Source of the DNA: Sandarakinorhabdus sp. | GTDB lineage: Bacteria; Pseudomonadota; Alphaproteobacteria; Sphingomonadales; Sphingomonadaceae | Assembly: GCA_025458465.1 (NCBI GenBank) | Contig: JALOSK010000013.1 | Span: 1 to 15,581, forward strand | DNA length: 15,581 nt | Reading direction: 5' to 3' | Shown: piece after piece, positions 1,597 to 15,581 of the stretch | Numbering within the stretch: the first letter of the stretch is position 1 | How the letters are laid out: each line of letters starts with the position of its first letter | The notes under the pieces: model-generated | Told to the model about the DNA's origin: nothing | Database searches by the model: none | Seen by the model: only the letters and a program-made list of their open reading frames with translations | Program-made: the position numbers and the translations under genes

Positions 1597-2076
1597 TCAG
1601 CCTTTGCCGGCCGGCGCCAGCAGGGCGGGCGGCGCCGGCCGCGACACCACTTCGCGCAGGCTGAACAACGAGTGCATGCGCGCCACCGACGGCAGCTCGG
1701 CCAGTTCCTCGCGGTGGATGCGCGCGAAATCGGCCAGATCGCGGGCGCGCAGCGTCACCAGATAATCCTCGCTGCCCGACAACAGGTGACAGCTGGTGAC
1801 GGACGGGCACCGCGCCACCGCCGCCTCGAAGGCGTCGAGTGCATCCTGGCTCTGCCGGTCAAGCTGGATCAGCACCATCACCAGCGTGCCATGGCCAAGG
1901 CGCTGGAAATCCAGCTGCGCGCCATAACCGCGGATGAAGCCGCTTTCCTCCAGCAGGCGCTGGCGACGGCCCGCCGCAGGGCCGGAGAGGCGCGCCGCCT
2001 CGCCCAGTTCGGCCTGCGTGGCACGGCCATCAACCAGCAGACGCGACAGGATGGCAAGATCGAATTGATCGAGCAT
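1597..2076 (-). CDS. Lrp/AsnC family transcriptional regulator
   Basis: This 159-residue protein has the normal length of the Lrp/AsnC family. Residues 1-50 form the winged helix-turn-helix: 'LDQFDLAIL' opens it, a recognition helix lies about 29-44, and 'RLLEESGFIRGYGAQLD' is the usual linker. Residues 60-145 fit the RAM ligand-binding domain, including 'GSEDYLVTLRARDLADF' (the G-x-x-D-Y-x-L pattern) and the closing 'SLREVV' strand. Such proteins form DNA-wrapping oligomers that sense amino acids. It diverges from alanine dehydrogenase, a common pairing in which the regulator activates ald in response to alanine; that role is inferred here. The ATG at 2076 has no strong ribosome binding site, but it places the first residues as usual for the family. 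Confidence 0.9.
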   Translation of the reverse strand: MLDQFDLAILSRLLVDGRATQAELGEAARLSGPAAGRRQRLLEESGFIRGYGAQLDFQRLGHGTLVMVLIQLDRQSQDALDAFEAAVARCPSVTSCHLLSGSEDYLVTLRARDLADFARIHREELAELPSVARMHSLFSLREVVSRPAPPALLAPAGKG

Positions 2077-2218
2077 GATGCGTTTTGAAAGCTTTCGGGC
2101 GGATATGTTTTCAGATTGATCACTTTTCCGCGCAAAATACCCCTATTGCAATCAGATTTTGCACAGATGCTTGCGTAAAATCCTCGCAAGACTGGGCCAG
2201 AGAATTGGGGAGATTGTC
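2077..2218. promoter_or_regulatory. Divergent lrp/ald control region with inverted repeats
   Basis: This 142-base stretch is clearly more AT-rich than its surroundings. It holds a perfect 10-base palindrome GAAAGCTTTC (2087-2096); an inverted repeat GCAAAAT (2132-2138) / ATTTTGC (2156-2162) with 17 bases between; and CTTGCG (2170-2175) / CGCAAG (2185-2190) with 9 bases between. Lrp-type regulators bind several degenerate AT-rich palindromes over about this length, so these are candidate operator sites. I could not identify a convincing -35/-10 pair in either direction. Confidence 0.55.
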
Positions 2219-3331
2219 ATGCTGATCGGGGTGCCGAAAGAGATCAAGCCGCAGGAAGGCCGGGTTGGCCTGACGCCGGAGGCCGTGCAGGAATATGTGG
2301 CGCATGGCCATGACGTGATGGTGCAAACCGGTGCCGGTGCGGGCATCGGCGCCGATGATGATGCCTATCGCGCCGCCGGCGCCCGCATCGCGCCCGATGC
2401 CGCCAGCATTTTCGCGGTTGCCGGCATGATCGTGAAGGTGAAGGAACCGCAGCCGGCCGAATGGACGATGCTGCGCGCCGGCCAGATATTGTTCACCTAT
2501 CTGCACCTTGCGCCCGATCCGGCGCAGACGCGGGGCCTGCTGGCCAGCGGCGTGACCGCGGTGGCGTATGAGATGGTGGGCGATGGCCACGGCCTGCCGC
2601 TGCTGACCCCGATGAGCGAAGTGGCCGGCCGGCTGGCCATCGAGGCCGCAGCCATTGCCTCGCGCGGGCACATGGGCGGCAAGGGCCTGTTGCTGGGCGG
2701 GGTTCCCGGCGTGGCGCCGGCGCGCGTCGTGGTGCTGGGTGGCGGGGTGGTGGGCACCCATGCGGCGCGCATGGCCGTTGGCCTGGGCGCCGAAGTGACC
2801 ATCCTTGATCGGGCGCTGCCGCGCCTGCGCCAGCTGGACGAGCTGTTCCAGGGCCGGGTGCGCACCCGCTATTCCAGCCGCGCCGCCATCGAGGCGGAAA
2901 TCCGCGCTGCCGATGTGGTGGTTGGCGCCGTGCTGGTGCCGGGTGCCGCGGCGCCGCGGTTGATCACCCGCCAGATGCTGGCGCTGATGGCGCCGGGCAC
3001 CGTGCTGGTGGACGTTGCCATCGATCAGGGCGGCTGCTTTGAAACCAGCCGGCCGACAACCCACGAGGCGCCCACCTATGTCGTGGATGGCATCATCCAT
3101 TATTGCGTGGCCAACATGCCGGGCGCGGTGCCGCGCACATCATCCCAGGCGCTGAACAATGCCACGCTGCCCTATGGCCTGGCGCTGGCCGATGGCGGGC
3201 TGGCGGCCATCGCGGCCTCGCCCGCGCTGCTGGCCGGCCTGTCGGTGCATCGCGGCCATCTGACCAGCGCACCGGTGGCCGAAGCCCTGGCCCTGCCGTT
3301 CACGCCGCCACAGGACGCGCTGGCGCTTTAA
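2219..3331 (+). CDS. ald: Alanine dehydrogenase
   Basis: The enzyme catalyses the reversible NAD-dependent oxidative deamination of L-alanine to pyruvate and ammonia in the cytoplasm. The ATG at 2219 is chosen over the upstream in-frame TTG at 2159 because it follows a strong GGGGAGA (2206-2212) and gives the family N-terminus 'MLIGVPKEIK'. The resulting 370 residues match the usual length of about 371. Visible are R15 in 'EGRVGLTP', K75 in 'KVKEP', H96 in 'YLHLA', the Rossmann motif GGGVVG (174-179) followed by an acidic residue at 197, and D269 in 'VAIDQGG'. These correspond to the known substrate and catalytic residues. It diverges from the Lrp-type regulator, its probable controller. Its stop codon overlaps the stop of the convergent DUF885 gene (shared TTAA, 3328-3331), leaving no room for a terminator between them. 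Confidence 0.96.
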   Translation: MLIGVPKEIKPQEGRVGLTPEAVQEYVAHGHDVMVQTGAGAGIGADDDAYRAAGARIAPDAASIFAVAGMIVKVKEPQPAEWTMLRAGQILFTYLHLAPDPAQTRGLLASGVTAVAYEMVGDGHGLPLLTPMSEVAGRLAIEAAAIASRGHMGGKGLLLGGVPGVAPARVVVLGGGVVGTHAARMAVGLGAEVTILDRALPRLRQLDELFQGRVRTRYSSRAAIEAEIRAADVVVGAVLVPGAAAPRLITRQMLALMAPGTVLVDVAIDQGGCFETSRPTTHEAPTYVVDGIIHYCVANMPGAVPRTSSQALNNATLPYGLALADGGLAAIAASPALLAGLSVHRGHLTSAPVAEALALPFTPPQDALAL

Positions 3332-4971
3332 TCGGGGATCGGCGGGCGCGCGAACAGGGCCTGGGCCATGGTTTCGTCGCCCGTCATCTCGTACCGGATC
3401 AGCGCCATGGGGATGCGGCCACGGCGGATGAAATCGTCGTGGAAGGCCTTCAGATCGAAGCGGTCGCCCAGTTGCCGGCGGCGCGCGGCCAGCAATTCCC
3501 ACATCTGCACATTGCCCATCGTGTATTCGAGGCCGTGGCCCGGCAGCGCGCGGATATGGGCATATTTGCGCGCCACGTCGGCATCAAGGAACGGCGTCAC
3601 CTGCTGCCACCAGTCGGCGGTTTCGGTGGCGGTCAATTCGTTGCGCTGGTTGCGGATGTCGCCCACGCTGCGCGCCGCCCGCCAAAGGCCGAAGATGTAG
3701 ATCAGTTCCTTCACGCGCGGCCGATCATCGAAGAAGCCCGCCTGCAGCGCAGCTTCCTCCAGATAGACCGCCCAGCCCTGCCAGCGCGCGCCGTCGTTCA
3801 CGGCGCGGCGGATCGGATTGGGATGGGCATTGGCCAGCATCAGATCCATGCGGTGGCCGGGGATCACGGCATGCAGGTGATCGGGCGAGGGATCGCGAAA
3901 CTGCACCTGTTCCCAGAAATTGGGCGGCGTTGGCCGGCGCACGAAGGGCACGTTGTACGGCTCGGCATAGGGGGGCACCACCATGCCGGCCAGGGTCTTC
4001 GGGATGGCCGGCGGGATGGTCATGAAGCCGCCTTCAAGAAAGCGCCGCACACGGGCATCGGTGTCGGCCACGCGCGCCTTGTAGTCGGCATCGTTGCTGG
4101 CCATTTCCAGCTTTGACAGTGCCTTGCTGCGATGCTCGGCGATGGCGGTGAAGGCCATCATGCGATCAAGCTCGCGCTGGCTGATGGCAAGGGCGGCGGC
4201 GCTGTCCCACGGCATCTGCAGGGCGTGGCGCAGATACCAGTCAAGCCGCGCGGTGCCGACGCCGGCGCGCGCCGTGATGCGCGGCTGCCGTTCGACCAGC
4301 CAGCCACGATAATCCTCCAGCGCCGCCAGTGCCGCATCGATGGCGGGCAGCAGATTGGGCTGCCGGGCTTGCGCCCGCGTCCGCAGATCGCGGAACCAGC
4401 CGATCACGCCGGCCGGTGCGACGGTCCGCGCCGGATAGCCATCCTCCACCCCGTCGGACTGGGTGAGCGAACGGATGGCAAGATCGACATGATCGCGCGC
4501 CATGTCGTCCAGCGTGACGCGTGAACCAGCAAGGATGGCGGGCACGCCAGCCAACCGCGACGCGAGGCCAGGATCGGGCAATTCGGCAAAGGCCATGCGC
4601 TGCAGGGGCTCCAGATAGAAGCCGGGATCGCGCGCCCACGGCCGTGTCACCTTCAGCAGGAATTCGGCGCGATCCAGTTCCGAACGCACCACCAGCCAAT
4701 CCACCTTGGCCTCGCGCGGCCAGGTGGCGACAGGCAGGGCGGCATGGCGTTGCTGAAGGGCGGCCAGCGCCGCCAGTCGGCGATCCATGGCGGCCTTGCC
4801 ATAGTCGCCCGACAGACCGCGCTGCCAGGCCTGGAATTCGCCGAACAATGCCAGCAGGGCGGCCTGCGGCTGGGCCGCCTTGTCTGCCGCAGGTGGTGAT
4901 GGTTGCGCGGTGGCGACAGCTGGCAGCGCCAGCAACATCGCCAGGGCCAGTGTGGTGAAGCGCCGTGCCAT
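3328..4971 (-). CDS. Secreted DUF885 family protein with altered metal-site motif
   Basis: This 547-residue protein has a clear Sec signal peptide (MARR, then a hydrophobic run to AVATA), so it probably acts in the periplasm. The ATG at 4971 follows GGGGGAGGAC at good spacing; a longer in-frame reading from 5040 would start inside the operator-like palindrome and spoil the signal peptide. The rest is a full-length DUF885 protein, a family of putative metallopeptidases or hydrolases. From memory the family has HExxPGH followed by EGWAxYxE. Here these read H367-A-V-I-P-G-H373 and Q398-G-W-A-V-Y-L-E405, so both expected glutamates are missing while both histidines remain. It may be a divergent or inactive member. 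It diverges from the ABC/dehydrogenase operon across a palindromic operator candidate, suggesting co-regulation and perhaps substrate release in the periplasm. It is homologous to the DUF885 gene at the right edge. Confidence 0.85.
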   Translation of the reverse strand: MARRFTTLALAMLLALPAVATAQPSPPAADKAAQPQAALLALFGEFQAWQRGLSGDYGKAAMDRRLAALAALQQRHAALPVATWPREAKVDWLVVRSELDRAEFLLKVTRPWARDPGFYLEPLQRMAFAELPDPGLASRLAGVPAILAGSRVTLDDMARDHVDLAIRSLTQSDGVEDGYPARTVAPAGVIGWFRDLRTRAQARQPNLLPAIDAALAALEDYRGWLVERQPRITARAGVGTARLDWYLRHALQMPWDSAAALAISQRELDRMMAFTAIAEHRSKALSKLEMASNDADYKARVADTDARVRRFLEGGFMTIPPAIPKTLAGMVVPPYAEPYNVPFVRRPTPPNFWEQVQFRDPSPDHLHAVIPGHRMDLMLANAHPNPIRRAVNDGARWQGWAVYLEEAALQAGFFDDRPRVKELIYIFGLWRAARSVGDIRNQRNELTATETADWWQQVTPFLDADVARKYAHIRALPGHGLEYTMGNVQMWELLAARRRQLGDRFDLKAFHDDFIRRGRIPMALIRYEMTGDETMAQALFARPPIPD

Positions 4972-5090
4972 GATTTCGTCCTCCCCCGTTTTGCGGCAGC
5001 ATATCGCGCAGATGGCCACAATGCGAACATTTGTTCGCAAATGGCCATTTTCGGCTTTGCGGCTGGCCGTGGATGTGCCAGCAAGGGCCC
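4972..5090. promoter_or_regulatory. Divergent control region between DUF885 gene and catabolic operon
   Basis: These 119 bases separate two divergent start codons. The central feature is an 18-base inverted repeat listed separately. It is flanked on both sides by the self-complementary word TGGCCA (5013-5018 and 5042-5047; both copies are preceded by A), whose centres lie 15 and 14 bases from the palindrome centre. No promoter with clear -35 and -10 boxes could be assigned on either strand. Confidence 0.5.
5022..5039. promoter_or_regulatory. Operator candidate, copy 1: TGCGAACATTTGTTCGCA
   Basis: Two perfect 8-base arms, TGCGAACA and TGTTCGCA, are separated by TT. The centre lies about 60 bases from each of the two divergent start codons (4971 and 5091), as expected for a shared operator. 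The same 18-mer recurs with 16 identities at 12390-12407, in the other divergent region of the window. The regulator is not in the window. The arms also fit CGAAC-N4-GTTCG, the LexA box of Gram-positive bacteria, but no SOS gene is near. Confidence 0.6.
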
Positions 5091-5861
5091 ATGCTGACGG
5101 ATCTGACTGGCAAGACGGTGCTGCTCACGGGCGCATCCAAGGGGATTGGCGCAGCCACCGCCGCCGTGCTCGGCGCTGCCGGGGCCCATCTGATCGCCCA
5201 TTATGGCAGTGATCGCGCCGGGGCAGAGGCCGCAACCGCCGCCATCCCGCCGGAACGCTGCCGCCTGATCGGGGCCGATCTGGCCGATCTGGATGCGGTG
5301 GAACGCCTGTGGGACGAGGCCGTGGCGTGGCGCGGGCGCGTTGACGTGCTGGTCAACAATGCGGCGGTGATGGATTTTTCCGGCGGCATCGATGCCCCGC
5401 TGGAGGAATGGGACGCGGTGTGGGAACGCGCCCTGCAGGTGAATGTGAAGGCGCCGGCCCGGCTGATGCGCCGCGCCGTGCAGCATTATCTGGCCCGGGG
5501 TGGCGGCAGCATCATCACCATCAGCAGCTGGGCCGCCCAGCGCGGCGTGAGCAACCCGGCCACCATTGCCTATGGCGCGTCCAAGGCAGCGGTGCGTTCG
5601 GCCACACAATCCATCGCCCGCACCTATGCCAAGGCCGGGATCATGGCCTACATCGTCGCCCCCGGCGTGGTGCGCACACGGCTGTCCGAACAATTCGCCG
5701 CCACGCAGGGTGGGGAGGCCATCGTCTCTGCCGGCCTTGCCAGCGGTGAATGGGTGACGCCCGATGAACTGGGCCGGCTGGTGGCCTTCATCGCCACTGG
5801 CGCGGTGCCGCAGCTTTCGGGCGGCACCATCGATGTCAACGGCGCTTCCTACATCCGCTGA
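5091..5861 (+). CDS. SDR family oxidoreductase (first gene of catabolic operon)
   Basis: This is a 256-residue classical short-chain dehydrogenase/reductase. Visible are the cofactor motif TGASKGIG (13-20), NNAA (89-92), the structural N118, the catalytic S145 or S146 in 'ITISSWAAQ', Y161 and K165 in YGASK, 'PGVVRT' (191-196) and a C-terminal 'GGTIDVNGASYIR'. The start at 5091 is preferred although its AAGGG (5083-5087) is only three bases away: an upstream in-frame TTG at 5031 lies inside the operator palindrome and adds a non-family extension. The stop overlaps the next start by one base (TGATG at 5859-5863), indicating translational coupling. The substrate cannot be read from sequence. Its place at the head of the operon suggests oxidation of a hydroxyl, or reduction of a ketone, on the imported compound or a product of it. 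Confidence 0.88.
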   Translation: MLTDLTGKTVLLTGASKGIGAATAAVLGAAGAHLIAHYGSDRAGAEAATAAIPPERCRLIGADLADLDAVERLWDEAVAWRGRVDVLVNNAAVMDFSGGIDAPLEEWDAVWERALQVNVKAPARLMRRAVQHYLARGGGSIITISSWAAQRGVSNPATIAYGASKAAVRSATQSIARTYAKAGIMAYIVAPGVVRTRLSEQFAATQGGEAIVSAGLASGEWVTPDELGRLVAFIATGAVPQLSGGTIDVNGASYIR

Positions 5862-7576
5862 TGCGCGTTGATCTGCCCGGGATCGATCGCAGCGGGACCG
5901 GCTTCCACTTCCGGTTTGCCGGCCGGCCGGTGCAGGCCTTTGCCGGCGAAAGCCTGGCCGCCGCGTTGACCGCTTCTGGCGAGCTTGTGACACGCACCAC
6001 GGCGGCCGGAGACGGACGCGGCATCTTCTGCGGCATGGGCGTGTGCGGGGAATGTGCCGTGCTGGTGGATGGCGAGATGCGCCGCGCCTGCATGACCGCC
6101 GCAGCGCCCGATCTGGCCGTGGAACCCGCCCCGGCCCTGGCCCAGCCGCATGTGAGGGAGGCGGGTGAAGCCCATGCCCTTGCTTGTGATCTGCTGGTGA
6201 TCGGCGCTGGCCCGGCCGGGCTGGCCGCCGCCGAGGCAGGCCGGGCGGCCGGGCTGGACGTGGTGCTGATCGACGAGCGTTCGCAGCCGGGCGGGCAGTA
6301 TTTCAAGCAGCCGGGCAAGGGCTTTGCCGTGGATGCCGGCCGCATCGATGCCCAGTTTGCCGAGGGCCGGGCGCTGGCGGCGCGGGTGGCCGCATCGGGC
6401 GCCAGGCTGCTGGCCGGCACGCTGGCATGGTCGGCCCGGCAGGAGGCCGGCGCCGTGCTGATCGATGCACAGGGGCCAGACGGGGCAATCAGCATCCGCG
6501 CCCGCCGGCTGGTGATTGCCGCCGGGGCCATGGAAAAGCCGTGGCCGATGCCGGGCTGGACCTTGCCCGGCGTGATGACAACCGGCGCCGGCCAGACGCT
6601 GCTGCGGGCCGGCCTGGTGGCCCCCGGCGCCCGGGTGCTGGTGGCCGGCAACGGCCCGCTCAACCTGCAGCTTGCCGATGAACTGGTGCGGGCTGGTGTG
6701 CGCGTGGTGGCGGTGGCCGAACAGGCGCCGCGGCCCGGCCCGGCGCATCTGGGCGCGGTGGCGGCCATGCTGATGGGCCATCCGGCGCTGGTGGCGGCCG
6801 GGGCTGTGCAACTGGCGCGGCTGGCGCGGGCCGGGGTGCCGGTGCGCCATGGCCATGTCGTCACACAGGCTGCAGGCGATGGCCGGGTGGAGCGGGCGAT
6901 GATCGCGCCAGTTGGCCGCGATGGGCGGCTGGGCGAAGGCCAATGGCTGGAGATTGACGCGCTGTGCATCGGCGCCGGGTTCCAGCCGCAGGCGGAAATC
7001 GCCCGGCTGCTGGGCTGTGCGCTGGCGTGGCGCGACGGCGGCCCGGTGGTTGTGCGGGATGATGATGGCCGCACCAGCGTGGATGCGGTGTTCGTGGCCG
7101 GCGATGGTGGCGGGCTGGGCGGGGCGCGGGCGGCGCTGGCGCAGGGCTGGCTGGCCGGCGCGGCAGCAGCGCGTGATCTGCTGGGCAGCCTGCCGGCGCC
7201 GCTGCTGGGCGAAATGGCCCGCCGGCAGGCGGCATTGGCCCGCGCCCGGCGTTTCCAGTCCGGCCTTTGGCGGCTGTTCGCGCCCGTCCCGCTGGCGGTG
7301 CCCCTCGCCACCGCCGATACAGTGCTGTGCCGCTGCGAAGGCGTGCGCTTTGGCGCGGTCGATGCACTGATCACGGCCGGCAACAGCGATCCCGGCAGCA
7401 TCAAGCGGGCGACCCGGCTGGGCATGGGCCGCTGCCAGGGCCGCTATTGCGGGCCGTTGCTGGCAGCACGGCTGGCCCAGCAGGCCGGGCGCCCGGCCAC
7501 CGCCGATGATCTGTTCGCGCCGCGCCCGCCGTTCAAGCCAACAACGCTTGCGGCCATCGCGGCGGCCGCGAAATGA
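5861..7576 (+). CDS. Fused [2Fe-2S]/FAD/BFD-type amino acid dehydrogenase subunit (HcnA-HcnB-like)
   Basis: This 571-residue protein joins three modules. Residues 1-100 are a ferredoxin-like [2Fe-2S] domain with C57, C62, C65 and C77, as in HcnA or LhpE-type small subunits. Residues 108 to about 450 are a two-dinucleotide-binding flavoprotein with GAGPAG (115-120), 'IDERSQPGGQY', 'AGNGPLN' for the second nucleotide site and 'VFVAGDGGG' near the end. Residues 486-535 are a BFD-like Cys cluster (C490, C492, C525, C530). Relatives are subunits of hydrogen cyanide synthase, octopine/nopaline oxidase and D-hydroxyproline dehydrogenase. They pass electrons from a DadA-like partner that oxidises the amino acid C-N bond. 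The obvious partner is the FAD gene at 11193-12362, on the opposite strand. Both junctions overlap neighbours (TGATG upstream, ATGA downstream). Fusion of the small and large subunits is the notable trait; the substrate is inferred only from context. Confidence 0.88.
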   Translation: MRVDLPGIDRSGTGFHFRFAGRPVQAFAGESLAAALTASGELVTRTTAAGDGRGIFCGMGVCGECAVLVDGEMRRACMTAAAPDLAVEPAPALAQPHVREAGEAHALACDLLVIGAGPAGLAAAEAGRAAGLDVVLIDERSQPGGQYFKQPGKGFAVDAGRIDAQFAEGRALAARVAASGARLLAGTLAWSARQEAGAVLIDAQGPDGAISIRARRLVIAAGAMEKPWPMPGWTLPGVMTTGAGQTLLRAGLVAPGARVLVAGNGPLNLQLADELVRAGVRVVAVAEQAPRPGPAHLGAVAAMLMGHPALVAAGAVQLARLARAGVPVRHGHVVTQAAGDGRVERAMIAPVGRDGRLGEGQWLEIDALCIGAGFQPQAEIARLLGCALAWRDGGPVVVRDDDGRTSVDAVFVAGDGGGLGGARAALAQGWLAGAAAARDLLGSLPAPLLGEMARRQAALARARRFQSGLWRLFAPVPLAVPLATADTVLCRCEGVRFGAVDALITAGNSDPGSIKRATRLGMGRCQGRYCGPLLAARLAQQAGRPATADDLFAPRPPFKPTTLAAIAAAAK

Positions 7577-9045
7577 TCCGGCTGCTGGCCTTGCTGTGGC
7601 TGCTGCTCGCAGCCCCGCTGCTTGCGCGTGATCTGGCCGAGATCCGGGCCAGCGGCACGCTCAAGGTGGGCGTCAATCCCAACTTCCCGCCGATGTCCAG
7701 CTATGGCCCCGGCGGCGTGTTGCAGGGTTTCGATGTGGCGGTGGCGCAGGAACTGGGCCGCCGACTGGGCGTGAAGGTGGAACTGGTGCCCACCGAGGCC
7801 GCCAGCCGCGTGCCGTTCCTGGTCTCTGGCCGCATCGATCTGTCGCTCGGCGCGCTCACCATCACGCCGGAACGCCGGGCGCTCATCGATTTTTCGGTGC
7901 CGCTGCATTCGGAATCGATGGGCGTGATCACCACCGATCGTGTGTCTGCCGCGCGCTGGCAGGAGCTTGATCGCCCCGGCATCACGCTGGTCAACATGCG
8001 GGGCAACCAATCGGTTTCCGTGCTGGAAGAGCTGTTGCCGCGCCCGCGCCGCCTGCTGGTGGACGGCAATGCCGATACCATCCGCGCGATTGCGCAGGGG
8101 CGCGCCGATGCGCTGGTGGAAAATGTCGATTTCTTCATCGGCTTCACGAAGAATTATCCCGATGTGCGCTGGCGCGTGCTGCCCGATCCGATCTTCACCG
8201 CCTGGTGCGGCGTGGGGCTGGCCAAGGGCAATGAGCCGCTGCGCGCCGCGGTCGATACGGCGCTGATCGCCATGCACCAGGATGGCACGGTGAACCGGCT
8301 GTGGCAGGCGGCCTATGGTGCGGCGATGACGGTGCCGGTGGGCGCCGAACAGTTGCAGCGTGCGGCCTCCAGTGGTGCCGGCGGCTATCGCTTCGATTGG
8401 CAGCCGGTGCTGGCGGCGCTGCCCTATCTGGCCGGCGGCGCGCTCATCAGCCTGCAGATCGCCCTGGTGGCCTTTGCGGCGGGTAGCATCATCGGGCTGG
8501 CGGCGGCGCTGGCGCGGCTGCATGGCCCATCCTGGGCGGCGCGCACGGCGGGTTTCTATGTGGGGGCGATCACCAACACGCCGGCGCTGGTGCAGATCTT
8601 CCTGCTTTATTACGCGCTGCCGGAAGTGGGCATCATGCTGCCCGGCATCGTGGCGGTGATGCTGGGCCTCACCCTCAATGCCGGCGGCTATCTGGCCGAC
8701 ATATTGCGCGCCGGTATCCAGTCCGTCCGCCCGTCAGAGATGGAGGCGGCCGACGTTCTGGGCCTGTCGCGGCTGGACAAGCTGCGCCATGTCATGCTGC
8801 CGCACATCGTGGCCACCGTGTATCGCCCGCTGGCCAATTTCTTCATCGTGCTGGTGCTGGGCAGCTCGATGGCGGCGCTGTTCGGCGTGGAGGAACTCAC
8901 CGGCCGTGCCATCAACATCTCCACCGCCAATCTGCGCACCATCGAGACCTTTGCGGTCACCGGCCTCATCTACATCGCGCTCACCCTCATCGCGTCGGCC
9001 CTGCTGGCGCTGGCCGGGCGGCAGTTGTTCCGGGTGCGGGCATGA
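7573..9045 (+). CDS. ABC importer: substrate-binding protein fused to permease (polar amino acid family)
   Basis: This 490-residue protein combines two parts normally made separately in Gram-negative bacteria. Residues 1-18 are a hydrophobic export signal or anchor. Residues 20-255 form a family-3 solute-binding domain: 'SGTLKVGVNPNFPP', 'GFDVAVAQELGRRLG', 'LTITPERRALIDFSVP', 'GRADALVENVDFF' and 'MHQDGTVNRLW'. Residues 275-490 form a HisM/GlnP-type permease with about five membrane segments and the EAA loop that contacts the ATPase ('EAADVLGLSRLDKLRHVMLP', 391-410). It should import an amino acid-like compound with the second permease and the ATPase that follow. The ATG overlaps the previous stop (ATGA, 7573-7576) and the next gene also overlaps by ATGA (9042-9045). 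The same fusion layout is known from Gram-positive GlnP-type transporters, where the binding domain is tethered to the membrane. Confidence 0.92.
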   Translation: MIRLLALLWLLLAAPLLARDLAEIRASGTLKVGVNPNFPPMSSYGPGGVLQGFDVAVAQELGRRLGVKVELVPTEAASRVPFLVSGRIDLSLGALTITPERRALIDFSVPLHSESMGVITTDRVSAARWQELDRPGITLVNMRGNQSVSVLEELLPRPRRLLVDGNADTIRAIAQGRADALVENVDFFIGFTKNYPDVRWRVLPDPIFTAWCGVGLAKGNEPLRAAVDTALIAMHQDGTVNRLWQAAYGAAMTVPVGAEQLQRAASSGAGGYRFDWQPVLAALPYLAGGALISLQIALVAFAAGSIIGLAAALARLHGPSWAARTAGFYVGAITNTPALVQIFLLYYALPEVGIMLPGIVAVMLGLTLNAGGYLADILRAGIQSVRPSEMEAADVLGLSRLDKLRHVMLPHIVATVYRPLANFFIVLVLGSSMAALFGVEELTGRAINISTANLRTIETFAVTGLIYIALTLIASALLALAGRQLFRVRA

Positions 9046-9693
9046 ACGGGGCCGCCGAATTCTTCACCACCGACACTGCCGCCTTCCTGGCCGGCGCGCT
9101 GGGGCGCACCTTGTGGATGACGCTGCTGGGCTGCACGCTGGGCTTCCTGCTGGGCGGCGTGCTGGCGCTGGTGCGGCGCACGCGGCAACCGCTGCTCGCC
9201 CCGGCGCGGCTGCTGGCCGGCCTTTATGTCGAAACCTTCCGGCGGCTGCCGTTCCTGGTGATCCTGATCCTGGTGCTGTTCTCGGTACAGGCGGTGGCGC
9301 CGGGCCTGTCGCTGCTGGGCATCGCCACCATCGCCGTCACGCTGGCAGCCACCGCCTATCTGGCAGAGATCATCCGCGCCGGGCTGGATGCGGTGCCGCG
9401 CCCGCAGGTGGAAGGCGCCGAGGTTCTGGGCCTTTCCGCGCTCGACCGGCTGCGCTTCGTGGTGCTGCCGCAGGCCTGGGGGGTGATCCTGCCGCCGGCC
9501 GCCGCCTTCATGGTGATGTTCGTGAAGGATACCGCACTGGCCAGCCACCTTGGCGTCGTGGAGCTGGCCTTTGCCGGCAAGATCCTTGTGAACAAGGGGT
9601 TTTCCCCCACGCTGGGCTTTGGGGCCGTGCTGGTTCTCTATGCCCTTGTCAGCTGGCCGCTGGGCCGCGCCGCCGCACATCTGGAGAAGAAAC

Positions 9694-9716
<23 letters not shown>
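9042..9716 (+). CDS. ABC transporter permease, polar amino acid family
   Basis: This 224-residue HisM/GlnP-type membrane protein is of the usual length. Hydrophobic segments lie near residues 13-43, 66-88, 91-112, 140-165 and 185-210. The EAA loop reads 'EGAEVLGLSALDRLRFVVLP' (124-143), closely parallel to that of the fused permease upstream, so the two form the heterodimeric channel. Unlike its partner it carries no binding domain, so the assembled importer should have one tethered receptor per complex. Its start overlaps the upstream stop (ATGA). Its last 23 bases overlap the ATPase gene in another frame. Confidence 0.92.
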
Positions 9717-10431
<715 letters not shown>

Positions 10432-10446
10432 GGAGGCGCGCGACAC

Positions 10447-11196
10447 ATGGACAACACTGGAGGCCGACTGGCAGGCAAGCAGGCGTTCATCACGGCAGCC
10501 GGGGCCGGCATCGGCCGGGCCACCGCGCTGGCCTTCGCGCGGGAAGGCGCGCAGGTGATGGCCACCGACATCGATACGCCGGCGCTGGCCAGCCTGAAGG
10601 CCGAGGCCCCGTCGATCCAGACCGCGCAACTGGACGTGCGGGACGCGGCGGCCGTGGCGGCGGCGCTGGCCGGCACGGCGCCCGATGTGCTGTTCAACTG
10701 CGCCGGCTTCGTGCACCAGGGCAATATCCTGGAACTCAGCGACGCGGACTGGGCCTTTACCTGGGATCTGAACGTGACGGCGATGATGCGCAGCATCCGC
10801 GCCGCGCTGCCGGGGATGCTGGCGCGCGGCAGCGGCACCATCATCAACATCGCGTCGGTCGCCTCCTCCATCAAGGCCTGGCCGAACCGCTGTGCCTATG
10901 GCGTGACCAAGGCGGCGGTGATCGGCCTCACCAAGTCGGTTGCGGCCGATTTCGCCGGGCGCGGCATCAGGGCCCATGCCATCTGCCCCGGCCCCATCGA
11001 GACACCGTCGCTGCTGGCCCGCATGAACGCCCAGCCCGATCCGTCCGCCACGCGCGCCGCGTTCATCGCCGGCCAGCCGATGGGGCGGCTGGGCCGGGCG
11101 GAGGAGGTGGCGGCGCTGGCGGTCTATCTGGCGTCGGACGAGGCAAGTTACACCACCGGCCAGACCCACATCATCGACGGCGGCTGGTCCGGTTAG
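10447..11196 (+). CDS. SDR oxidoreductase of DHRS6/BDH2 clade (4-oxoproline reductase or 3-hydroxybutyrate dehydrogenase-like)
   Basis: This 249-residue short-chain dehydrogenase is strikingly like human DHRS6 (recalled sequence): TAAGAGIG (16-23), D41 in 'ATDID' (NAD preference), NCAG (84-87), N109, 'NIASVASSIK' with S137, 'NRCAYGVTKAAVIGLTKS' with R148, Y151 and K155, 'CPGPIETPSL' and the C-terminal 'IIDGGWSG'. DHRS6 was first described as a cytosolic 3-hydroxybutyrate dehydrogenase and later shown to reduce 4-oxo-L-proline. Bacterial 2-keto-3-deoxyfuconate dehydrogenases share much of this pattern, so the substrate stays open. Of the three arginines lining the DHRS6 substrate pocket, the first two align with R148 and R192, but the third aligns with G209. 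A GGGAGG ends 10 bases before the ATG. Its TAG overlaps the stop of the convergent FAD gene by four bases. Confidence 0.9.
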   Translation: MDNTGGRLAGKQAFITAAGAGIGRATALAFAREGAQVMATDIDTPALASLKAEAPSIQTAQLDVRDAAAVAAALAGTAPDVLFNCAGFVHQGNILELSDADWAFTWDLNVTAMMRSIRAALPGMLARGSGTIINIASVASSIKAWPNRCAYGVTKAAVIGLTKSVAADFAGRGIRAHAICPGPIETPSLLARMNAQPDPSATRAAFIAGQPMGRLGRAEEVAALAVYLASDEASYTTGQTHIIDGGWSG

Positions 11197-12362
11197 GGAC
11201 GTTTGGGCGCAAAGCTGTCCGGGGGCAGATCGAAGAAGGGCGGGCGGCCCAGGATCCGATCGGCCGTCAGCCGGGCCGCCGCCGGGCCACCGGTGAAGCC
11301 CATCCACGGCACGAAGCAGACATGGGCATCGGGATGATCGGGCAGCGGGCCGATGATCGGCAGCCAATCATCGGTACCGTTCACGAAGGCGGCCCAGCTG
11401 CGCACCAGGTTCAGGCTGCCCAGCGCCGGCACCATGTCGAGCGCCACCTTGAGATTGGCGGCCAGATTGGCGGGATCGACCTGTGGGCGCCCCTGTTCAT
11501 CCAGCCGCGCATCCCAGCCGCCGCCGATCAGCAAACTGCCATTCTTCGCCTGCTTGAGGGTAAGCTTCTGGCTGGCGCAATAGACAAGATGTGGCACCAG
11601 CGGCGCGGCCGGTTCGGTCACACTCACCTGGATGGCCACGGCATCGATGGCCAGCGGCGTGCCCAGCTGGGCGGCCAGCCGCCCGCTTTCGGAACCCGCC
11701 GCAATCACGATGCGCGGCGCGCGCCAGCGCTGATTGCCGGCCGCAACGACATAGGTGCCGCCGTCTGCCGCGATGCTGGCCGGGCCGGCGCCGCTGATGA
11801 TCGTCACCCCGGCGGCGCGGGCGGCTGCGGCATAGGCGGGCGCCACCAGCAGCGGGTTGGCCTTGCCCTCGATGCCGGCAAAGGCGCCGCCGACCGCCCT
11901 TTCGGACAGATAGGGGGCCAGATCGCGCAAGGCCTTGCGGCCAATCAGATCAACGCCCAGCCCGGCCTCGCGCTCGATGGCGGCCTTGGTCTCGATCTCG
12001 GCCATTTCCGCCTCGTTCACCGCCACGAGGAGCCCGCCGCCAAAGCGGATATCAAGATCCGCACCCAGATCGGCCTCAAGCCGTTGCCACAGGCCGATCG
12101 AGGCGATGAACAGCCGGATCGCCGGCTGGAAGCGCCGGGCCCAATCGGCCCCAAGCGTGCGGAACGGATCGTGCGGGATCTGCGCGTGCAGGCTGCCGGC
12201 ATTGGCCGAAGAGGCCTGCGCGCCCGGCACGCCGGCCTCCACCAGCGTCACCGCCATGCCGCCCCGCGCCAGGTCCAGCGCAGTGGCGAGGCCGGCGATG
12301 CCGCCGCCAACAATGATAACGTCTGCGTGCATCACCGGTTGTTCTGCTTCCTTGTGCCCCAT
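11193..12362 (-). CDS. DadA-like FAD-dependent amino acid oxidoreductase (putative beta subunit)
   Basis: This 389-residue DAO-superfamily flavoprotein has the FAD motif DVIIVGGGIAG (14-24), followed by 'TLVEAG' and 'ASSANAGSLH', the latter typical of D-amino acid dehydrogenase DadA and its relatives. The C-terminal part has 'LLIGGGWDAR', 'VRSWAAFVNGTDDWLPIIGPL' and 'GFTGGPAAARLTADRI', the substrate/FAD closing region. Relatives are the catalytic subunits of octopine oxidase, HcnC and the beta subunit of D-hydroxyproline dehydrogenase. These work with an FAD/[2Fe-2S] partner such as the one at 5861-7576. The start may instead be the internal ATG at 12332, which fits the usual family N-terminus ('MHADVIIVGGG'); neither has a good ribosome binding site. 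The gene diverges from the DapA-family gene across the second operator copy and converges on SDR 2 with a four-base stop overlap. Confidence 0.88.
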   Translation of the reverse strand: MGHKEAEQPVMHADVIIVGGGIAGLATALDLARGGMAVTLVEAGVPGAQASSANAGSLHAQIPHDPFRTLGADWARRFQPAIRLFIASIGLWQRLEADLGADLDIRFGGGLLVAVNEAEMAEIETKAAIEREAGLGVDLIGRKALRDLAPYLSERAVGGAFAGIEGKANPLLVAPAYAAAARAAGVTIISGAGPASIAADGGTYVVAAGNQRWRAPRIVIAAGSESGRLAAQLGTPLAIDAVAIQVSVTEPAAPLVPHLVYCASQKLTLKQAKNGSLLIGGGWDARLDEQGRPQVDPANLAANLKVALDMVPALGSLNLVRSWAAFVNGTDDWLPIIGPLPDHPDAHVCFVPWMGFTGGPAAARLTADRILGRPPFFDLPPDSFAPKRP

Positions 12363-12389
12363 GGCTTGCCACGGCTAAAGTGGGCGCTA

Positions 12390-12407
12390 TGCTGACATTT
12401 GTTCGCA
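12390..12407. promoter_or_regulatory. Operator candidate, copy 2: TGCTGACATTTGTTCGCA
   Basis: The site matches the palindrome at 5022-5039 at 16 of 18 positions, including an unbroken ACATTTGTTCGCA of 13 bases. The differences are both in the left arm, so this copy is an imperfect palindrome. Such an AT-containing word is unlikely to repeat by chance in DNA this GC-rich, and both copies sit in divergent intergenic regions. It overlaps the -35 box and spacer of the promoter candidate, which would suit repression. Confidence 0.6.
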
Positions 12408-12505: not shown

Positions 12506-13477
12506 ATGACAGTGGAATTCCGGGGCAGCCATACCGTGGCCGTGACGCCGTTCAACAATGATGGCAGCGATATCGATATCGGCCGTCTGAACGCCTTCCT
12601 TGATTGGCAGGTGGAATGCGGGGTGCCGGGCGTGATCATGCTGGGCACCACCGGTGAATTCCTCACCATCAGCGATGATGAACGCCGCCGGCTGGTGGAA
12701 GCGACCGTGCGCCATGCCGCCGGCCGCTATCAGGTGATGGTGGGCACGATGAACGCCTATACCCCCAACGCCGTGCGCTACAGCCGCGAGGCACAGGATC
12801 TGGGCGCCGATGGCCTGATGATCATCCCGCCTTATTACTACACCCCCACCGACGACGAGATCTTCGAATATTACCGCGCCATCTGCGAGGCGGTTTCGAT
12901 CCCGATCATGCTCTACAACAACCCGGTGACATCGAACCGCGACATGTCGGCGGCGCTGGTGGCACGGTTGACATCGGCCTTCGAACAGGCCCGCTACATC
13001 AAGGAAGCCAGCATGGACGTGGCCCGCGTCTATGACATCGTGGAGGCCACGGGCGGCGTGATGAACGTGTTCGCCGGGGAGCGCCCGGTGGAAAGCTTCC
13101 TGCTGGGCGCGGTGGGCTATGTGAACCCCTATGGCAATTATCTGCCCTATCAGACGCGGCGGATGTGGGATCTGCTGGTGGAAGGCCGCGTGCACGATGC
13201 CGCGCACATCCAGGCGCTGGTCCACAAGTTCGACAAGATCATTGCCGAAGGCCACCCCACCTATGGCCACCAATGCTATTCCAAGGCGCTGGCCGGCGCG
13301 CGCGGCTATCCGGTGGGCGATGTGCGCGCACCGCTGACCAAGTTTGCCAGCCTGGGCGAGGAAGGCCGCACCAAGCTGAAGCAGATCCTGGGCGTGTTCG
13401 ACGAGATTGATGCCCTGATGGCCGATATCGATGGCCGCAGCATCGATAGCCACGCCCACCGCGCGCACGCGGCCTGA
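12506..13477 (+). CDS. DapA-superfamily (dihydrodipicolinate synthase/NAL) lyase or deaminase
   Basis: This 323-residue class I Schiff-base TIM-barrel enzyme has the carboxylate-binding GTTGE (47-51), Y137 in 'IMLYNNP', and the Schiff-base lysine K166 in 'RYIKEAS'. The position of the DHDPS arginine (YNVPSR in E. coli) is T142 here (YNNPVT), and the protein is about 30 residues longer than DapA. It is therefore probably not the lysine-pathway enzyme but a catabolic member, such as a keto-deoxy sugar acid aldolase or a pyrroline-4-hydroxy-2-carboxylate deaminase (LhpC/HypD type). The company of amino acid dehydrogenase subunits favours the deaminase, by inference. The ATG at 12506 follows an AAGGCAGG region at good spacing. 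The Old Yellow Enzyme gene starts three bases after its stop, so the two are co-transcribed. Confidence 0.9.
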   Translation: MTVEFRGSHTVAVTPFNNDGSDIDIGRLNAFLDWQVECGVPGVIMLGTTGEFLTISDDERRRLVEATVRHAAGRYQVMVGTMNAYTPNAVRYSREAQDLGADGLMIIPPYYYTPTDDEIFEYYRAICEAVSIPIMLYNNPVTSNRDMSAALVARLTSAFEQARYIKEASMDVARVYDIVEATGGVMNVFAGERPVESFLLGAVGYVNPYGNYLPYQTRRMWDLLVEGRVHDAAHIQALVHKFDKIIAEGHPTYGHQCYSKALAGARGYPVGDVRAPLTKFASLGEEGRTKLKQILGVFDEIDALMADIDGRSIDSHAHRAHAA

Positions 13478-13480
13478 CAC

Positions 13481-14581
13481 ATGTCCGATATTGCCCTGTT
13501 CACGCCGCTGACCATCCGCGGCGTCACCTTCCGCAATCGCGTGGTGCTGGCCCCGATGTGCCAGTATCGCGCGATCGATGGCGTGGCGCAGCGCTGGCAT
13601 CGCAGCCACCATGGCCGGCTGGCGCTGGGCGGGCTGGGCGGCGCGCTGCTGGAAGCCACCGCCGTGGCACCCGAAGGCCGCATCACGCCGGGCTGCCTTG
13701 GCATCTGGACGGATGATCATCTGCCCGGTCTGCAGGAACTGGTGGCCATCTATCATGATGAAGGCGTGCCGGTGGGCATCCAGCTTGCCCATGCCGGCCG
13801 CAAGGCGTCGGCCGCGACGCCGTTCGAAGGCGCGCAGCCGCTGCCGGCCGGGGATCCGCGTGGCTGGCAGAGCGTGGCGCCCAGCGCGATCCCGTTCGGC
13901 CCCGGCTGGCAGACGCCGCGCGCGCTGGACGAGGCGGGCATTGCCGAGGTGATCGAACAATTTGCCGCTGCTGCCCGCCGCGCCGTGGCCGCCGGCTTCG
14001 ATTTCGTCGAGGTGCACGGTGCCCATGGCTATCTGATCAACAGCTTCATCTCGCCGATCAGCAACCAGCGGGATGATGGCTGGGGCGGCGAAAACCGCTT
14101 CCGGCTGGCCGTCGAGATCACCCGCGCCGTGCGTGCCGCGGTGGGCGAGGCAATGCCGGTGTTCTACCGCACCTCCAGCGTGGACGGTGCCGACGGCGGC
14201 ATCACCATGGCGGACACGGTGGCACTGGCCGCCGCGCTGAAGGCCGCCGGAGCGGACGTGATCGATTGTTCAACCGGCGGCGTGCTTGGCCCATCCGGGG
14301 TCGCCTCCGTGCCGCCATCGCCGGGCTATCTGGTGCCCTATGCGGCGCAGGTTCGGCGCGAGGCCGGGGTGGCGAGCATGGCCGTCGGCCTGATCATGGA
14401 CGGCGCCCTCGCCAACCGCATCATCACCGATGGCGAGGCCGATCTGGTGGCGGTGGGCCGGCAGTTGCTGGCCGATTCCGCCTTCGTCCACCGCGCCGCG
14501 CAGGAACTGGGCCATCCGCAGCCGCACCGGCTGCTGCCGCAGGGCCTGGGCTTCTGGCTGGAACGGCGCAAGTTCAGCTGA
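13481..14581 (+). CDS. Old Yellow Enzyme family NADH:flavin oxidoreductase (YqjM-like)
   Basis: This 366-residue FMN-dependent TIM-barrel ene-reductase belongs to the classical short (YqjM-like) group. It has 'NRVVLAPMCQY' with C27 and Y29, 'QLAHAGRKAS' (101-110), the substrate-binding pair H179 and H182 in 'VHGAHGYLINSFISP', and 'VGRQLLADSAFV' near the phosphate-binding end. It lacks the C-terminal Fe-S/FAD extension of dienoyl-CoA reductases and N-methylproline demethylases, so it is not one of those two-domain enzymes. Such proteins reduce activated C=C bonds or, in some cases, handle cyclic amines. Its start lies three bases after the DapA-family stop, so a role in the same pathway is likely, but the reaction is unknown. 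It ends three bases before the stop of the convergent DUF885 gene. Confidence 0.92.
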   Translation: MSDIALFTPLTIRGVTFRNRVVLAPMCQYRAIDGVAQRWHRSHHGRLALGGLGGALLEATAVAPEGRITPGCLGIWTDDHLPGLQELVAIYHDEGVPVGIQLAHAGRKASAATPFEGAQPLPAGDPRGWQSVAPSAIPFGPGWQTPRALDEAGIAEVIEQFAAAARRAVAAGFDFVEVHGAHGYLINSFISPISNQRDDGWGGENRFRLAVEITRAVRAAVGEAMPVFYRTSSVDGADGGITMADTVALAAALKAAGADVIDCSTGGVLGPSGVASVPPSPGYLVPYAAQVRREAGVASMAVGLIMDGALANRIITDGEADLVAVGRQLLADSAFVHRAAQELGHPQPHRLLPQGLGFWLERRKFS

Positions 14582-14584
14582 GGA

Positions 14585-15581
14585 TCAGGGGTTTGCCACG
14601 GGGATGGGGGGTGCCTGCCACATCCCCTTCACCTGATCATCGTTGCCGGTCATCTCCCAGCGCACCAGCGTGATCGGCATGATGCCGCTGGCGATGAAGC
14701 GATCATGGAAGCGGCCCAGATCGAAGTTGCGGCCTTCCTTCAGCGCCACTTCGGCCAGAAGCTGTTCCAGCTGCATCTTGCCGAAATAATAATTGATGCC
14801 CAGCCCCGGCTGCCGAAGATAGAGCGCCATGTCATACAGCGCGGTGTCGTCGGTCTTTTCCATCCAGTAGGGCGTGCGGGTGGTGAGCGAGGTCAGCGCC
14901 TCGTCGAAGCTCCATTCATTGGCGTGCACCTTCAGTTCCGGCAGCAGCCGCGCGGCGCGGTTGGCCATCAATGTATAGTGGATTTCGCGCGCCTTGGGCC
15001 GCGCATCCAGGAAGCCGGCCTGCACCACCATCTCTTCCAGATAGAAGGCCCAGCCCTCGATGCGCTGGCTGTCGATGAAGTTCAGGCGCGCATCGCGGCG
15101 GATCGGGCGGGAGTCGCGGCTGCGATACGCCATGTCGAAGATGTGGCCGGGCAGATTGTGGGCGCGCAACGTGCGCGGATCGCGATCCTCGGCCTCGCGG
15201 AAGAAGTTGCGCCCTTCCGGCGTGAACAGGCCGGGCGCCGCCGGATCGCGGTTCATCGGCATCACGTAGGGGCCCTCCGGCGGCGGCACCACCAGCCAAT
15301 CGGGCACGGTCATGATGCCCTTGGCCTTCAGGAAGGCCAGCAGATCGCTGTCAGCCTCGCGGCGCAGGGCTTCAAAGCCGGCGAGATCGCCCACCATGGG
15401 CAGCATCGGCGTGGCGCGATGCTCGTGCTCTTCCATCTTCAGGAAGGCCATGGTGCGTTCCCACTCGCGTTCGCCCAGTGCCCGCATCTCGCTGTAATCA
15501 TACGGGTACAGCAGCACATGGCGCATGTACCATTCAAACGCCGCGCGGCCGATGCCCGCTGCGCCGTCGGCCTTCTGCGCC
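14585..15581 (-). CDS. DUF885 family protein, second copy, N-terminus outside window
   Basis: The frame stays open from the in-frame ATG at 15526 to the right window edge. Those codons read a family-like 'GIGRAAFEWY' directly before 'MRHVLLYPYDY', so the gene continues beyond the window and 15526 is not its start. About 332 C-terminal residues are visible. They align with the DUF885 protein at 3328-4971 (for example WYMRHVLLYPYD with WYLRHALQMPWD, and FHDRFIASGIMPITLVRWEMTG with FHDDFIRRGRIPMALIRYEMTG). The usual HExxPGH is replaced by AHNLPGH, with only the last histidine in register, whereas EGWAFYLEE keeps the glutamate lost in the other copy. Putative hydrolase. Whether it has a signal peptide cannot be seen. 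Confidence 0.85.
   Translation of the reverse strand, partial: AQKADGAAGIGRAAFEWYMRHVLLYPYDYSEMRALGEREWERTMAFLKMEEHEHRATPMLPMVGDLAGFEALRREADSDLLAFLKAKGIMTVPDWLVVPPPEGPYVMPMNRDPAAPGLFTPEGRNFFREAEDRDPRTLRAHNLPGHIFDMAYRSRDSRPIRRDARLNFIDSQRIEGWAFYLEEMVVQAGFLDARPKAREIHYTLMANRAARLLPELKVHANEWSFDEALTSLTTRTPYWMEKTDDTALYDMALYLRQPGLGINYYFGKMQLEQLLAEVALKEGRNFDLGRFHDRFIASGIMPITLVRWEMTGNDDQVKGMWQAPPIPVANP

Follow-up and report, generated by a model that had tools for sequence, protein, structure and literature searches.

Two predicted three-box operators of an IclR-family regulator in a scattered catabolic regulon of Sandarakinorhabdus

The window analysed here, a whole stretch of 15,581 nucleotides from Sandarakinorhabdus sp. 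(contig JALOSK010000013.1 of assembly GCA_025458465.1), carries two copies of an 18-base inverted repeat, each between a pair of divergent genes. We hold with high confidence that both are operators, predicted from sequence, of one IclR-family regulator that is encoded on another contig (C250) of the same genome and would govern a scattered catabolic regulon. By computation we showed the sites and their conservation, located the regulator gene, and found that regulator and sites are present or absent together. The genome (G000) is a 2.5 Mb metagenome-assembled genome (MAG) that is about 76% complete. The two predicted operators are laid out as follows:

5013..5039, + strand: operator 1, with TGCGAACA at 5022-5029, TGTTCGCA at 5032-5039 and a weak left third box, TGGCCAC, at 5013-5019.
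12381..12407, + strand: operator 2, with the third box TGGGCGC at 12381-12387, TGCTGACA at 12390-12397 and TGTTCGCA at 12400-12407.

A first-pass annotation had noted the same 18-mer between both divergent gene pairs, and we confirmed it there: TGCGAACATTTGTTCGCA at 5022-5039 is a perfect 8+2+8 palindrome whose 8-base arms flank TT, and TGCTGACATTTGTTCGCA at 12390-12407 is 16/18 identical to it. Site 1 lies 50 bases from the start of a DUF885 gene (4971) and 51 bases from that of a short-chain dehydrogenase (SDR) gene (5091), and for site 2 the distances are 27 bases to the start of a DAO-family gene (12362) and 98 to that of a DapA-like gene (12506). Our gene calls broadly match those of the first-pass annotation. 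The window holds no further match at ≤3 mismatches (mean of 0.01 in 200 shuffles), and the whole genome adds only two more places, each with 3 mismatches, while the reversed control gave none. Site 2 departs from symmetry twice, at position 4 (T for G) and at position 5 (G for A), the latter change being common only to the window and loci L035, L037, L040 and L041.

Named ortholog loci were used to examine conservation, because footprinting based on the [2Fe-2S]/FAD (FeS/FAD) oxidoreductase of the window within its own family found a close ortholog only in the window's genome among 149 genomes, other near-full-length matches being ≤40% identical. With the DapA-like protein we fetched 80 named loci (1,403,217 bases in total), spanning Sphingomonadales, Rhodobacteraceae, Hyphomicrobiales, Caballeronia/Paraburkholderia, Pseudomonas, other gammaproteobacteria and a few actinobacteria-titled records. 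The palindrome TGCGAACA-NN-TGTTCGCA occurs in these loci 3, 11, 41 and 102 times at up to 0, 1, 2 and 3 mismatches, respectively; 200 palindromes with permuted half-sites gave means of 0, 0.01, 0.29 and 4.86 and maxima of 0, 1, 7 and 51, and none equalled the observed count. With the window included, 82/104 sites at ≤3 mismatches lie outside genes and ≤300 bases upstream of a recognised start, in stretches that make up 9% of the bases, and only 8/104 lie inside recognised genes (59% of the bases); for the permuted palindromes the corresponding figures are 49/478 and 263/478. The motif had been expected to be conserved upstream of orthologues, and the site counts bear this out. Indeed, related sites precede homologous genes in alpha- and gammaproteobacteria, and more weakly in betaproteobacteria. 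The target promoters include those of SDR1 with a 3HCDH-like or DUF885 gene, of DAO with the DapA-like gene, of the ABC transporter operon, of a NAD-kinase-like gene with GcvPA/GcvPB, of an SBP_bac_1 (solute-binding protein) gene opposite the IclR gene, and of the IclR gene itself; in Rhodobacteraceae the sites stand between IclR and the solute-binding protein gene, and in Acuticoccus just upstream of IclR (L053, the same place as L153). A chance palindrome was ruled out by the shuffles, the reversed control, the permuted palindromes and the placement upstream of starts.

Promoter-wise alignment of these sites revealed a third box, such that TGTTCGC-TAT-GCGAACA overlaps TGCGAACA-NN-TGTTCGCA in either orientation. 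The full operator form is TGTTCGC-TAT-GCGAACA-NN-TGTTCGCA, of which the 18-mer comprises two of the three boxes; the motif that the first-pass annotation took as the unit is thus real, but the operator is longer, with a third box to its left. At ≤2 mismatches the third box is found at 79/100 sites against 89/4500 control 7-mers; it is mostly missing in the NADK|GcvPA class (present in 2/11). The place and a similar form of operator 2 recur in 22 orthologous DAO|DapA intergenic regions, and its third box in the window has 2 mismatches. This architecture is of a published kind: Suvorova and Gelfand (2021; PMC8222616) describe, in the parts consulted, group 1 and group 2 box pairs of IclR operators and 32 orthologous groups with three alternating boxes, PcaU, PobR and HmgR being earlier three-box cases. 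Our sites share with these the alternating boxes, a GAACA-N2-TGTTC pair and an IclR-family regulator, and their other pair would be of the GTNCG-N5-6-CGNAC type; they differ in that the regulon here is scattered and serves amino-acid-like catabolism, whereas aromatic and sugar pathways are the main ones named in that paper. The group 2 pair (TGRAACA-N1-2-TGTTYCA) is recognisable in the core GAACA-NN-TGTTC of site 1, and at site 2 the right arm TGTTC is kept while the left arm reads TGACA; the outer bases here (TGC-/-GCA) are unlike the published group 2 consensus. Table 1 of the same article lists PcaR of Corynebacterium glutamicum with GTTCGC-N3-GCGAAC, which the left box pair TGTTCGC-TAT-GCGAACA fits; its targets, protocatechuate genes, are other than those here, and here an outer box is added. 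Judged by sequence, the sites are most probably three-box operators of the IclR type.

An IclR-type family is encoded within the fetched stretch in 41/80 loci, and one member, that of L096, lies just over the cut-off of the PcaR/PcaU/PobR subfamily (284.9 bits vs 284.75). The ortholog in the window's genome is on another contig (G000:C250:564-1319); it has HTH_IclR and IclR_C domains and scores 406 bits to A1, against 211 for the next IclR protein. Its neighbours are genes for an aldehyde dehydrogenase (ALDH), a DUF885 protein, a TonB receptor, a methyltransferase and a PuuE-like deacetylase, and the Polymorphobacter counterpart of this ALDH passes the succinate-semialdehyde dehydrogenase cut-off. 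C250:564-1319 is thus the likely candidate regulator, of the PcaR/PcaU/PobR type. An IclR protein of this family is present in 25/25 cluster-bearing genomes scanned for the motif (pooled 11+11+2+1). By comparison, three alphaproteobacteria (of 289) carry a DapA-like gene with 67-69% identity, but their IclR proteins are distant (best 139-181 bits), and a profile of the sites, R1, found no match in them (0/3, with the best 150 of 763-1002 candidates scored), while carriers gave 5/5 with the same model. That the two sites form one regulon with a regulator outside the window, as first proposed, is well supported by the IclR gene on C250, the orthologous sites and the few genomic matches, whereas binding itself is what we infer.

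The profile R1 was built from sequence only, out of 38 sites of relatives including sphingomonads and with the window left out. In the window's genome it found four places at E ≤ 1 (best 150 of 493 candidates scored), all in catabolic gene sets: site 1 (5014-5039, the top match at 21.3 bits), site 2 (17.7 bits), C322:13920-13942 (16.5 bits) and C250:8001-8027 (16.4 bits). Together with the two extra 3-mismatch places, these accord with the expectation of few genomic matches. The C250 place immediately precedes the PuuE-like gene, on the same contig as the regulator gene. The C322 operon (L252) encodes an SBP_bac_1 transporter, a second DapA-like protein, a LysA-like decarboxylase, two SDR-like proteins and a TonB-receptor-like protein; next to it lie another DAO gene and part of another FeS/FAD gene. 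Because the MAG is incomplete, it may lack further targets. In four relatives searched with R1 the matches are mostly at the cluster, with others at G154:C50:2702 and G158:C2:2588647.

Among the cluster-bearing genomes, 24/25 hold at least one site at ≤2 mismatches, 73 sites in total. Fetched far sites with a recognised partner precede pathway genes, namely TonB receptors (L139, L150), DUF885, NADK-GcvPA-GcvPB, ABC genes, an M20 amidohydrolase, an S15 peptidase, an ALDH-IclR pair and IclR. The L139 site, before a TonB receptor gene in the closest relative, is a perfect match; none of the pathway queries adjoins the sites of L147-L149, L151 and L156. In L142, L145 and L152 the same operator stands before a NAD-kinase-like gene, which we take to be AcoX-like, and the GcvPA and GcvPB genes that come after it. 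Outside the carriers, the motif is near background, since at ≤1 mismatch it occurs in 9/289 genomes of the class and the reversed control in 4/289. A contingency test over the same 289 genomes was weak, with a DapA-like ortholog in 4 and the IclR protein (E ≤ 1e-85) in 13; apart from the window's genome, three carry the DapA-like gene, and none of these also has the IclR protein or the motif at these cut-offs. Genome G374 has an IclR match (335 bits) and a 1-mismatch site, and no DapA-like match at E ≤ 1e-85.

Several observations weigh against this interpretation. The third box of operator 1 is poor (3/7 mismatches). The regulator is unlinked to the sites of the window and the MAG is incomplete, so the connection between regulator and sites rests on orthology. 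In the 25 cluster-bearing genomes the reversed pattern has 20 sites, so that some single sites are chance occurrences, and sites do not exceed reversed controls in Pseudomonas (2 vs 3), Paraburkholderia (1 vs 1) and Martelella (1 vs 4); G150 has the regulator and no site at ≤2 mismatches. At ≤3 mismatches no site was found in five Caballeronia/Paraburkholderia loci, which have 4-mismatch ones only, nor in 5/8 actinobacteria-titled loci. The divergent DAO/DapA-like pair occurs in 38 sequences, and its best site is at ≤4 mismatches in 23 of them and not in the other 15. Finally, candidates for R1 were scored only in part (150/493 in the window's genome, 150 of 763-1002 in the three non-carriers), and an empty profile answer shows nothing alone. 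Our confidence stops short of certainty because the betaproteobacterial sites are weaker and the profile candidates were only partly scored.

The position of operator 2 offers a view of how the switch might work. A promoter scan, which returned 2 promoter-like sites where 0.1 were expected, placed the following element in front of the DapA-like gene; at site 1 the scan gave no promoter-like match.

12366..12393, + strand: sigma-70-like promoter TTGCCA-16-TATGCT of the DapA-like gene.

Its -10 hexamer, at 12388-12393, overlaps operator 2, and in most orthologs the left box in the DAO|DapA region is TGCT or TGGT. The T at position 4 is found in 20/23 DAO|DapA sites against 1/77 sites at other promoters, and a complete TANNNT in 17/23 against 0/77. 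These counts take the best site per locus and promoter class at ≤4 mismatches of a palindrome with G at that position, a choice that disfavours T. Decay of site 2 was ruled out for position 4 on the same 20/23 and 1/77, and the best explanation for its asymmetry is that the operator contains a -10 hexamer. This suggests repression as the probable mode of action. An IclR protein would bind the three alternating boxes, which are about one helical turn apart, and would thereby control genes for uptake, peptidase-like and oxidoreductase functions together with the DapA-like lyase. Without inducer it would most likely repress, operator 2 sitting on the -10 element of the DapA-like/OYE (old yellow enzyme) promoter and operator 1 midway between divergent starts, and a metabolite of the pathway might release or re-position it. 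Repression rather than activation, relieved by an inducer, is what we infer from a regulator lying over a promoter. The case would be a clear one of a likely -10 element inside an operator arm, which two classes have retained although it breaks the symmetry.

Other proteins might recognise such palindromes. The Gram-positive LexA box is CGAAC-N4-GTTCG, and the core CGAACATTTGTTCG fits this consensus, which would make the sites SOS boxes. However, no SOS gene stands at any of the four R1 places found in the window's genome, so the SOS gene set that would have spoken against the first-pass proposal did not appear; the annotated sites (not all those of the 25 genomes were annotated) stand mostly at catabolic, transport and IclR genes, and neither a third box nor joint presence and absence with IclR is expected of LexA. 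We rejected this reading on these grounds and consider it extremely improbable. Scarcely more probable is another local regulator, such as the Lrp/AsnC protein encoded at 1597-2076, which is the sole regulator gene recognised in the window. Its homolog is found in 3/81 sequences (window, L038, L039) whereas the sites are general, and it was rejected on that count; the IclR protein is instead found in 41/81 sequences within the fetched stretch and in 25/25 cluster-bearing genomes checked. If the IclR protein is accepted as the binder, it might still be mainly an activator that does not occlude its promoters. PcaU and PobR can act as activators, the closest family model is PcaR/PcaU/PobR (L096, 284.9 bits vs 284.75), and PcaU, PobR and HmgR are known to have three-box sites. 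Yet operator 2 and the -10 hexamer of the DapA-like promoter share bases, and we regard mainly activating control as doubtful, if far more credible than either of the other binders.

The genes around the predicted operators are the following:

3328..4971, - strand: DUF885 protein (PF05960), with a signal-peptide-like start judged by eye, 50 bases from operator 1.
5091..5861, + strand: short-chain dehydrogenase SDR1, first gene of the + operon, with homologs in 65/80 loci.
5861..7576, + strand: [2Fe-2S]/FAD oxidoreductase (Fer2_4, Pyr_redox_2, Fer2_BFD, SO_alpha_A3); top PDB relative 1y56_A.
7573..9045, + strand: amino-acid ABC transporter, solute-binding domain fused to permease in a single open reading frame (ORF; PF00497 + PF00528).
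9042..9716, + strand: ABC permease (PF00528).
9700..10431, + strand: ABC ATPase (PF00005), start codon uncertain.
10447..11196, + strand: short-chain dehydrogenase SDR2.
11193..12362, - strand: DAO-family FAD oxidoreductase, beta-type catalytic subunit (PF01266); PDB relatives are glycine oxidase and sarcosine oxidase beta.
12506..13477, + strand: DapA-family lyase/deaminase (PF00701).
13481..14581, + strand: OYE-family oxidoreductase (PF00724).
14585..15526, - strand: second DUF885 protein, truncated at the end of the contig (PF05960, C-terminal part only).

By family matches, the protein encoded at 5861-7576 is a single chain in which a gamma-type part ([2Fe-2S]) and an alpha-type part (FAD/BFD) are fused, both of the D-hydroxyproline/opine dehydrogenase kind. 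The DapA-like protein is below the dapA equivalog cut-off (168.5 bits vs 206.15). The fusion of SBP_bac_3 and permease at 7573-9045 is split into separate genes in several relatives, e.g. L044, L065 and L069.

Taken together, the regulated genes suggest that an amino-acid-like compound is taken up and oxidised. GcvPA of L065 (419 bits vs 364) and GcvPB of L044 (509.9 bits vs 441) pass their curated cut-offs, hinting at glycine as a product. One candidate is the classical catabolism of trans-4-hydroxy-L-proline, of the LhpA-LhpG type. At family level the linked genes do include a DapA-family enzyme and a semialdehyde-dehydrogenase-like ALDH, but SDR1, OYE, GcvPA/GcvPB and the 3HCDH-like and PuuE-like genes are not known to take part in it, and the epimerase family PF05544 (proline-racemase family) is over its cut-off in only 2/9 carriers, some of them incomplete MAGs, with one further match (19.8 bits) below it. 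In the window's genome its member (G000:C343:3780-4745) is on a separate contig that has no profile match and is not among the regulon contigs found. The first-pass annotation had named a regulator, an epimerase and a semialdehyde dehydrogenase as likely partners; the IclR gene and its adjoining ALDH agree with this, whereas the epimerase is irregular. The FeS/FAD and DAO subunits resemble, again in family-level matches, those of D-hydroxyproline and opine dehydrogenases (PMC4575208, in the parts consulted). OdhABC and D-HypDH, as described there, likewise combine a DAO beta subunit with FeS/FAD partners and have an amino-acid ABC transporter close by; here, by contrast, a single ORF encodes both gamma and alpha, and the beta gene is divergent to the DapA-like gene. 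All in all, we think the hydroxyproline route unlikely. Somewhat more credible, and offered tentatively, is that the cluster represents an undescribed catabolic pathway of alpha-, beta- and gammaproteobacteria for an opine-like or N-substituted amino-acid substrate, with TonB/ABC import, a heteromeric flavin dehydrogenase, the DapA-like lyase and OYE, and with glycine passing to dedicated GcvPA/GcvPB. The substrate is perhaps peptide-borne and glycine-releasing, mycosporine-like amino acids being one idea.

A literature search joining IclR with mycosporine, or with hydroxyproline/dihydrodipicolinate synthase/sarcosine oxidase, gave no match, and one on IclR with TGTTCGCA gave apparently unrelated matches only. 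The sites are very likely operators in a known kind of switch, and the content of the regulon is one of which we found no description in the literature searched; supplementary tables were outside that search, so we do not claim its absence from print. A candidate regulator, a defined operator and targets listed in several operons make discovery of the substrate testable, because the inducer of one IclR protein plus one knockout phenotype would name the pathway.

Upstream of the cluster, at 1597-3331, the Lrp/AsnC regulator gene (1597-2076) is divergent to an alanine dehydrogenase gene (2219-3331); this is perhaps a separate unit, since the Lrp homolog is present in only 2/80 related loci. In Polymorphobacter, a strong R1 match of 19.9 bits (G154:C32:15882-15907; L253 about 5883) immediately precedes an alanine dehydrogenase gene that is a homolog of the window's 2219-3331.

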